A stretch of 64,000 nt of DNA from assembly GCF_001645125.1 (NCBI RefSeq), contig NZ_LXKA01000022.1:124001-188000 (forward strand), given 5' to 3'. The translations under genes and the position numbers were made by a program. The DNA is from Paraburkholderia ginsengiterrae (GTDB lineage Bacteria > Pseudomonadota > Gammaproteobacteria > Burkholderiales > Burkholderiaceae). The first letter of the stretch is position 1. Each line of letters starts with the position of its first letter. The notes beneath the pieces were generated by a model. The model saw only the letters and a program-made list of their open reading frames with translations. It searched no databases and was not told the origin of the DNA. Shown here one piece after another: positions 22,523 through 24,584 of this stretch.

Positions 22523-22951
22523 TTAGATCTCGAGCGCTTTCGGCTGTTGTGCCGAATGCGGATGCGTTGCTTCAGCGTAGACCTTCAGCTTCTTGATCAT
22601 CGCGTAGCCGAGCGGGCCCTTCGGCAGCATGCCCTTGACCGCTTTCTCGAGCGCACGGCCCGGGAAGCGTTCTTGCATCTTGCCGAACGTCGTTTCATAG
22701 ATACCGCCCGGGTAGCCCGAATGGCGATAGTACTTCTTGTCAGTCGTCTTGTTGCCCGTGACCTTCAGCTTGCCGGCGTTGATAACGATGATGAAATCAC
22801 CGGTGTCGACGTGGGGAGTGAATTCAGGCTTGTGCTTGCCGCGAAGACGGTGTGCCACTTCGCTGGCGACACGCCCGAGAACCTTATCCGTCGCGTCAAT
22901 CACGTACCATTCGCGCGTCACCTCATGGGCTTTTGCGGAAAACGTCTTCAT
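22523..22951 (-). CDS. rplM: 50S ribosomal protein L13
   Basis: Early-assembly large-subunit protein. The family blocks [26 protein letters not shown] and [20 protein letters not shown]-like (ending [14 protein letters not shown]) are all present. 142 residues, ATG at 22951. First gene of rplM-rpsI. The candidate small RNA ends about 270 nt upstream on the same strand. Confidence 0.98.
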
Positions 22952-23218
22952 GATCGATCCAAAAAAATTGCTGCGCCCAATGTGTTTTTTCCTGCTTGTA
23001 GTGTGCGCATCGAGGCGCGTGCAGGCTCTCCCTGGTTCTTCCTCCGCGGGCGCGGATGCGGAAAAGCCCTGAATTATAAAGGAATTTGCGACGCCAAGTC
23101 AAAACGTACGGGACTTTTGCGCGAATTTCCCGGCCATCGACCGTCCAGCAGCGCCATTTGCCACCCTGGCAGGCTCGAAACCGGCGTGGCCGCGGGGCCT
23201 AAAGGCGGGCTCGCTGGC

Positions 23219-23308
23219 GAAAAAAAACCCGAACGAGCGGTTCGGGTTTAATCCACCAAAGGAGGAGGTGGAGGAGACAGCGGAGGTTGCACACTTGCTG
23301 CAACCGAT
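23219..23308 (-). ncRNA. Candidate CU-rich anti-Shine-Dalgarno small RNA
   Basis: Predicted minus-strand transcript of about 90 nt. Read 5'-3' it contains a 7 bp hairpin (23285-23305, GGTTGCA / TGCAACC, 7 nt loop), then a CU-rich linker. A small hairpin follows with stem CCACC / GGTGG (23253-23271) whose 9 nt loop is UCCUCCUUU, complementary to a strong Shine-Dalgarno. Last comes an intrinsic terminator (stem 23225-23234 with 23240-23249, then 8 U). A TATAAT -10 box lies 7-8 nt before the predicted 5' end. No credible ORF is present. CU-rich small RNAs that bind ribosome sites are known in alphaproteobacteria and, as I recall, in Burkholderia (NcS27); membership in such a family was not tested. 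Confidence 0.7.
23225..23249 (-). terminator. Terminator of the candidate small RNA
   Basis: Stem AAACCCGAAC / GTTCGGGTTT (10 bp) with a 5 nt loop. On the minus strand the U tract overlaps and extends the end of the stem (8 U, 23227 down to 23220). Confidence 0.88.
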
Positions 23309-23315
23309 GGATCAG

Positions 23316-23344
23316 ATTATATGAGTCCACCTTGTGCGGCGCAA
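23316..23344 (-). promoter_or_regulatory. Sigma-70-like promoter of the candidate small RNA
   Basis: On the minus strand TTGCGC (23344-23339), a 17 nt spacer and a perfect TATAAT (23321-23316) lie just before the first hairpin. The surrounding 23310-23450 stretch is AT-richer than its neighbours. The rest of the gap to 23641 shows no gene I can support. Confidence 0.6.
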
Positions 23345-23641
23345 GAAGATTTGCATCGCGAAATACAATCTCATAATGTGAGAACCGCATTTCTCAGCCT
23401 CATTACACTAAATTTCCTTTTAAATCAGATACTAAAAGTATCCAGCACGACCGCCTCACCAATCATCTTCTAGAGTAAAACCCCTAAACCCCTGCGGGCA
23501 TTCCCGAATCGGCCGAACATGCGGCGGCGCAACACGCAAGCCGTCATTCCGCATAATTTCCAGCAAAAGTCGCCTCGGGCGGATACTCAAACACCGGGCT
23601 ACAATGCCGTCTCGATATAGCGAAGCGCGGTGGAGCACAGC

Positions 23642-24064
23642 ATGGAATGCAAAGTGAGCTGGATGGGGCAAGACGGAATGGCATTTGCGGCCGAGACGGG
23701 CAGCGGCCATCTGGTTGCGATGGACGGCGCGCCTGAAGGCGGCGGCCGCAATCTCGCGCCGCGTCCAATGGAAATGGTGCTGCTCGGCACGGGCGGCTGC
23801 ACGGCCTACGACGTCGTGATGATCCTGAAGAAGAGCCGGCAGGAAATTTCTGACTGCTCGGTGACGCTGAAGGCCGAACGCGCCAGCGAAGACCCGAAAG
23901 TGTTCACCAAGATCCACTTTCACTTCACCGTGACGGGCAAGAATCTGAATCCGGCCACTGTGGAGCGCGCGATCAACTTGTCGCACGACAAATACTGCTC
24001 GGCTTCGATCATGATCGCGAAAACCGCTGAGCTGACGCACTCGTTCGACATCGTCGCGGGCTGA
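23642..24064 (+). CDS. OsmC/YhfA family protein
   Basis: Small OsmC-fold protein, a family of cysteine-based peroxide-detoxifying or sulfur-handling enzymes. The two conserved cysteines are in GTGGCTAYDVV and DKYCSASIM. The form is the short YhfA-like type (140 residues), whose physiological substrate is not firmly known. The ATG at 23642 is preferred over the in-frame GTG at 23630 because the GGTGGAG between them is a suitably spaced ribosome site. Monocistronic, ended by the hairpin at 24126-24161. Confidence 0.9.
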   Translation: MECKVSWMGQDGMAFAAETGSGHLVAMDGAPEGGGRNLAPRPMEMVLLGTGGCTAYDVVMILKKSRQEISDCSVTLKAERASEDPKVFTKIHFHFTVTGKNLNPATVERAINLSHDKYCSASIMIAKTAELTHSFDIVAG

Positions 24065-24161: not shown

Positions 24162-24169
24162 GTTGGGTG

Positions 24170-24584
<415 letters not shown>

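Follow-up and report, generated by a model that had tools for sequence, protein, structure and literature searches.

Four homologs of the Rfam family RF02278 ("Betaproteobacteria toxic small RNA") have been mapped in Burkholderia cenocepacia J2315 (PMC4603805, PMC5688073), and the family owes its name to the toxicity in E. coli reported for cloned relatives (PMC4603805). NcS27/bdhR1 of J2315, a member of this family, is described as a 92-nt RNA with CU-rich unpaired segments, encoded on the complement between BCAL3348a and BCAL3349 (PMC4603805 Table 3, PMC5688073), and BCAL3348 is named among the ribosomal protein genes (PMC4603805, PMC5688073). According to PMC5688073, the levels of ncS03, ncS05 and ncS27 increase in glucose medium and upon starvation, an upstream motif is common to three of the four homologs, 55–80% of their predicted interactions fall around gene starts, overexpression of NcS27 slows growth with silencing having the opposite effect, and the regulator of accumulation of the homologs is stated as unknown. 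NcS27 is also reported to affect growth and carbon-source use (PMC10987360, summarising Sass 2019). For PhaR of R. eutropha, a repressor that senses the storage polymer PHB, the palindrome YTKNTGCRNYGCANMAR has been deduced, with positions 1–4 and 7 from the centre almost perfectly conserved (PMC12849132), and PhaR is described to leave the DNA upon PHB production (PMC12849132, PMC4873508). Control of RF02278 RNAs by PhaR was not found in the available text of the literature searched, Sass 2019 and Kimelman 2012 lying outside that scope.

The window analysed here is a stretch of 64,000 nucleotides from Paraburkholderia ginsengiterrae (contig NZ_LXKA01000022.1, positions 124,001 to 188,000, forward strand). 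It contains an RNA of this family with the following features and neighbors:

22523..22951, minus strand: rplM (L13), downstream neighbour (NCBIfam TIGR01066, 206.5 bits)
23073–23102, minus strand: near-consensus promoter-like site of rplM-rpsI, TTGACT-18-TATAAT, between the small RNA terminator and rplM (promoter scan)
23219..23310, minus strand: RF02278 small RNA (cmscan 71.7 bits, fold z −5.2), transcript approximately 23308–23220, with the start predicted from the promoter
23220..23249, minus strand: intrinsic terminator hairpin followed by eight U (T at 23227–23220; fold and terminator scan)
23252..23272, minus strand: stem-loop 2 (fold), with the loop UCCUCCUUU (23266–23258) as second anti-SD segment
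23270..23279, minus strand: first anti-SD segment UGUCUCCUCC, the final three bases of which enter stem-loop 2
23285..23305, minus strand: stem-loop 1 (GGUUGCA/UGCAACC; fold), outside the Rfam model and with weak covariation support
23316..23344, minus strand: sigma70-type promoter, TTGCGC at 23344–23339, 17-nt spacer at 23338–23322, TATAAT at 23321–23316
23331..23347, minus strand: putative PhaR operator TTCTTGCGCCGCACAAG, one mismatch to YTKNTGCRNYGCANMAR, the left half doubling as −35 element
23630..24064, plus strand: OsmC-family gene, divergent upstream neighbour (NCBIfam NF008009, 154.2 bits)

The match to RF02278 was obtained with cmscan against Rfam at window positions 23219–23279 (−), with 71.7 bits at a gathering score of 50 and a complete alignment (model positions 1–64 of 64). 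Two hairpins, CU-rich unpaired segments and a terminator, which are traits of the family, were found in the fold and the alignment. Among the arguments against a chance origin of the RNA, this covariance-model match, obtained by a search that an earlier note on this DNA had proposed, and the recurrence of the RNA upstream of rplM (see below) are the strongest. The order in the window is OsmC-family gene (+), small RNA (−), rplM (−), and since the RNA is located between rplM and the divergent OsmC-family gene, orthology to NcS27 is very probable, the J2315 locus being compared by its published description. The RNA is not new, as its Rfam family is curated and has members that have been published, are expressed and have in part been characterised, and the novelty given to it in the earlier note was overstated. 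A 63-aa ORF at 23199–23390 (−) was rejected as a coding function of the RNA, because it traverses both the −10 element and the terminator. Three RF02278 copies above threshold were present in the own genome, together with a diverged fourth copy at 41.3 bits (L004, 121–188), which has no PhaR-like site. At least one copy above threshold was found in 59 of 59 genus genomes searched, the own genome included. Three genomes of one family (G064, G113 and G280 of f7) contained 5–9 RF02278 matches each, some of them a few hundred bases apart and several with a PhaR-like site of their own.

What is new here is the PhaR-like operator at RF02278 promoters; blocking of ribosome binding sites, attenuation of growth and the likeness to the NmsR RNAs are already in print. 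We consider it likely, and hold with good confidence, that the rplM-linked RF02278 RNA, the NcS27 ortholog, acts in a circuit with PhaR and PHB. In this circuit, two CUCC segments of the RNA would imitate the 16S 3′ tail, cover the SD sequences of target mRNAs and lower their translation, and PhaR would repress transcription of the RNA by occupying the palindrome that spans the −35 element and the spacer. PHB synthesis would titrate PhaR onto the polymer and leave the small RNA promoter free, and the freed RNA would then, at carbon excess and nutrient limitation, throttle the genes by which carbon and nitrogen sources are taken up and catabolised. The induction reported for glucose medium and starvation fits such a circuit. 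Family membership, predicted fold, conservation, operator match and the distribution of the operator in the order, where it accompanies PhaR and is nearly missing from genomes that lack PhaR, were computed in this analysis; binding and repression by PhaR at the window promoter are putative and are inferred from sequence.

The operator-like palindrome of the window deviates from the published PhaR consensus at 1 of 17 positions with the core intact, and TTGCRNYGCACAA is retained at −35 in many sequences upstream of the small RNA. All three above-threshold copies of the own genome have a palindrome one mismatch away from the consensus, again with an intact core, and it is unlikely that the site stands at 3/3 of these promoters by chance. 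PhaR is encoded once in this genome (PF07879, 108 bits). Ten perfect consensus sites were counted, of which one each lies upstream of a phasin gene (together with a one-mismatch site), a PHB depolymerase gene and an acetoacetate decarboxylase gene, and the remainder inside ORFs or beside other ORFs. At L140 (1501–2145), a perfect consensus site precedes by 44 nt an ORF of 194 aa to which no NCBIfam family matched. Sites at the start were found in only one of the seven phasin-family loci, and no PhaR-like site was found near phaR of the own genome. Genome-wide, sites with at most one mismatch numbered 137, compared with 104 for the reversed pattern, and single sites therefore mean little; a first, shorter motif had given 14 matches against 7 for its control.

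The operator was subsequently compared with the presence of PhaR across the order. A site was counted on core positions only, with at most one mismatch and within 140 nt upstream of a small RNA copy, and this criterion was fixed after the first sample and before validation on newly drawn genomes. In the first sample (70 genomes of the order; all 70 listed copies used), the site was present in 37 of 54 copies with PhaR encoded versus 1 of 16 without PhaR, the latter with a one-mismatch core. An RF02278 match was found in 86 new genomes, 74 of which entered the validation, the other 12 having only matches below the listing cut. Here, the site preceded 65/77 copies with PhaR versus 0/23 without, or, counted as genomes, 51/55 versus 0/19; the exact core was present in 38/77 versus 0/23 copies. 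From dinucleotide shuffles, 2.95 of 77 and 0.47 of 23 were expected, the reversed pattern was found in 2/77 and 1/23 copies, and the downstream region gave 13/77 and 0/23. A control region 160–300 nt upstream was high, with 21/77 versus 1/23 (exact core: 12 versus 0), which could be explained by longer leaders or additional operators. When both samples were pooled, the real palindrome was found in 102/131 versus 1/39 copies, and the best discriminating of 200 random palindromes in 25/131 versus 1/39. Fisher values on this co-occurrence ignore phylogeny, and relatedness was controlled only roughly, with about seven changes of PhaR state on a weak two-ribosomal-protein tree of 30 genomes. The site was missing from four of the 55 PhaR-encoding validation genomes, two of which (G144, G191) adjoin PhaR-less relatives.

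With this incomplete control of phylogeny, the palindrome might be bound by another regulator of the TGC-N3-GCA type and the co-occurrence with PhaR be a by-product of shared ancestry; the four PhaR-encoding genomes lacking the site, the many near-consensus sites elsewhere in the own genome and the single phasin-family locus of seven with a site also point in this direction. We nevertheless regard another regulator as unlikely, as the same consensus precedes the phasin, PHB depolymerase and acetoacetate decarboxylase genes of the own genome, none of the 19 PhaR-less validation genomes has the site, and the consensus comes from earlier work by others on published PhaR sites, with no fitting to the present data.

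The promoter claimed in the earlier note (TTGCGC, 17-nt spacer and TATAAT on the minus strand) is present, and it was not listed by the consensus promoter scan because TTGCGC shares 3 of 6 bases with TTGACA, the scan demanding four. Of 103 site-bearing copies, 33 have a −10-like hexamer beginning at +18 from the site centre and 20 have one beginning at +6, and with a start at +18 the left half-site is the −35 element with a 17-nt spacer. The control for this phasing was noisy, with a −10-like hexamer on the downstream side in 74/103 copies and on the mirrored upstream side in 57/103, 18 of these at one distance. Both positions of the site would predict exclusion of RNA polymerase, as it was proposed for phaP1 (PMC12849132). 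In the largest phasing class, the left half-site overlaps the −35 element, which could also mean that the conserved block is merely a strong −35 element (TTGC) and no repressor is involved. This is very improbable: the right half GCANNA sits in the spacer, where sigma70 requires no sequence, several PhaR-less promoters retain a TTGCA-like −35 element without the right half (seen by eye, uncounted), and the second phasing class puts the site at the −10 element. Just upstream of the putative operator, a second, partly palindromic block CATTATGA...TATTTCGCGATGCAAAT was observed at 23349–23378 (−), which can also be made out in part of the Paraburkholderia, Caballeronia, Burkholderia and Ralstonia copies.

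Conservation upstream of rplM, for which the earlier note had suggested an alignment, was assessed with a covariance model for which 56 copies from the order were used. In 44 of the 80 named rplM loci, it found the same RNA upstream of the gene, each time on the rplM strand and 204–994 nt from the rplM start; the 80 loci include two (L045, L065) with just 323 and 61 nt upstream of rplM. Records of Paraburkholderia, Burkholderia, Caballeronia, Ralstonia, Cupriavidus, Pandoraea, Herbaspirillum, Undibacterium and Polynucleobacter contain the rplM-linked RNA, and with this model no rplM-upstream match was found in the Massilia, Duganella and Janthinobacterium records of the set. At the Paraburkholderia fungorum locus (L043), no rplM-linked RNA was found, and the place upstream of rplM is taken by a response-regulator-like ORF. 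In the window, RNase P RNA was also identified, at 24168–24581 (−) (RF00010, 296.9 bits).

The shared strand and the conserved position in 44/80 loci would likewise be expected of a cis-acting leader or attenuator of rplM-rpsI. However, the small RNA ends in a terminator of its own, is separated from rplM by a consensus promoter for that gene and has paralogous copies elsewhere, and the distance to rplM is variable, so that a leader is barely credible. Given the promoter-like site that rplM itself has between terminator and gene, the neighbourhood is read as synteny. A functional tie to rplM, as the mention of the adjacent ribosomal protein operon in the earlier note might suggest, was not supported, in view of this site (23102–23073) and of a weak predicted duplex with the rplM start (−11.6 kcal/mol).

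Of the 44 named rplM-linked copies, 34 carry a site no farther than 140 nt upstream, and in 24 of these the core is exact. Those ten without a site in this range are from Burkholderia (L048, L050, L051) and Cupriavidus (L059, L060, L062), in addition to L053, L055, L092 and L104, and include a leaf-nodule symbiont. Cupriavidus L059 has an exact core at −156, outside the 140-nt range, and in Ralstonia L057 and L058 the counted site is downstream of the −10 element. The copy upstream of rplM in B. aenigmatica L050 and those of Burkholderia sp. L048 and L051, which share its type of promoter, have no PhaR-like palindrome, whereas the window copy has one. In view of these rplM-linked copies of the B. 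aenigmatica type, the NcS27 copy in the species where it was studied may have escaped PhaR.

Folding of the window RNA gave three hairpins (23305–23285, 23272–23252 and the terminator stem 23249–23225, minus strand) with a minimum free energy of −33.7 kcal/mol and z −5.2, and 0 of 200 dinucleotide shuffles folded as well. The terminator scan lists the terminator of the small RNA, with shuffles giving 1.2 on average. Fold and scan hence agree with the three hairpins and the terminator with eight U that had been described from the letters alone. The first hairpin is the least supported, with 81.7% of cells paired in 20 sequences and one cell showing a two-sided change, and by eye it is absent from some Caballeronia copies (L046, L054). 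For stem-loop 2, pairing at the four counted stem pairs was 100% across 55 distinct sequences, and one of these pairs shows two-sided changes. In the MAFFT alignment A1, the register of the terminator helix was wrong in many rows (47.4% paired), and a one-column shift of all partners raised the covariation score from 0.126 to 0.427; the terminator was therefore assessed by per-copy folding of 169 of the 170 copies, one being dropped because it has no T run. The covariance model R1 still contains the uncorrected register. In the per-copy folds, 169/169 copies kept a 3′ hairpin of 5 bp or more, with 46 different 6-nt 5′ arms.

The loop of the middle hairpin and the further CUCC stretch 5′ of it, both pointed out in the earlier note, correspond to the loop at 23266–23258 and the segment at 23270–23279. 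These anti-SD segments are the most conserved part of the RF02278 RNA, with TCTCCTCC inside the first 14 nt in 148 of 170 copies of the order. In 146 of 169 folded copies, most of the first segment is predicted to be unpaired, and the same applies to the second in 77 of the 132 copies that have it. CCUCC is described as the anti-SD core of the 16S tail, and the anti-SD tail extends beyond this core. Titration of the 16S rRNA tail by the RNA, as the earlier note had also suggested, deserves practically no credence because the loop, although it contains CCUCCUUU, repeats the anti-SD sequence of the tail and is not its complement, and can thus compete for SD sequences only.

The idea that a CU-rich small RNA could occupy many ribosome binding sites agrees with the published view of RF02278 (PMC5688073), and since the papers on the J2315 RNAs, S17 and the NmsR RNAs describe action at ribosome binding sites, the main idea of the earlier note was already in print. 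Target prediction, which had also been proposed, was not discriminating: for the 52 window ORFs, duplex energies were similar at gene starts and in gene interiors (median −16.5 versus −17.15 kcal/mol), and this prediction was not used as evidence for targets of the RNA.

Beyond the window, we think it probable that RF02278 RNAs are part of the core PhaR regulon across the order wherever PhaR exists, that PHB is in this way wired to a global translation brake on uptake and catabolic genes, that PhaR is the missing regulator of most of these double-hairpin RNAs and a candidate repressor of S17, and that the PhaR–small RNA circuit is either ancient or repeatedly evolved. If true, stored carbon would set the strength with which the cell throttles other genes. 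A PhaR operator at the small RNA would offer a single hypothesis for the regulation of the J2315 RNAs, the postulated repression of the S17 promoter and the riboregulation of PHB synthesis in Cupriavidus necator, the role of which is called undeciphered in PMC8401924. In PHB engineering, titration of PhaR would, as a side effect, release a growth-slowing RNA.

Besides NcS27, four described systems are close to the window RNA. Anti-hemB (RF02837) is likewise a Burkholderia RNA with a CU-rich hairpin and a terminator, and the window reaches 27.9 bits with this model, below its threshold of 49.5. S17 of Bordetella pertussis resembles RF02278 RNAs in a homologous 5′ end, the targeting of ribosome binding sites and Hfq dependence; its promoter is described with a −35 element TTGCAT, and repression of this promoter in the Bvg− mode has been postulated (PMC11722255). 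S17 is a 190-nt precursor cut by RNase E, whereas the window RNA is predicted to be of approximately 90 nt from its own start. The Neisseria RNAs NmsRA and NmsRB (RcoF, RF02877) have, as the window RNA, three stem-loops with anti-SD segments between SL1 and SL2 and in the SL2 loop, and mutation of either α-SD segment of NmsRA abolished regulation of all tested targets except GltA (PMC5362039). Unlike the window RNA, they are tandem siblings. With the NmsRb model (RF02877), the window aligns end to end at 28.3 bits, below the gathering score of 52. Five NmsR-like loci (L218, L219, L203, L319, L215) match both RF02278 and NmsRb and are candidates for an Rfam clan. Four of the five exceed the NmsRb threshold (best 64.6–106.7 bits) and reach 34–48.5 bits with RF02278, short of the 50 required there. 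L215, the fifth, stays under both thresholds, with 41.2 bits for NmsRb and 35.5 for RF02278. RF02278 and RF02877 are probably homologous, and Rfam lists no clan for either.

MmgR (alpha-r8, RF00519) of S. meliloti belongs to an alphaproteobacterial family, unlike RF02278: no RF00519 match was found in the window up to E = 1, and among nine loci scanned one (L215) reached 27.5 bits at a threshold of 41. Like the RNA proposed here, MmgR is a small, Hfq-dependent RNA that is repressed by PhaR (AniA) and tied to PHB, and it limits phasins (PMC12542648, PMC8401924). As PhaR represses MmgR in S. meliloti, the betaproteobacterial circuit proposed here would parallel a known one.
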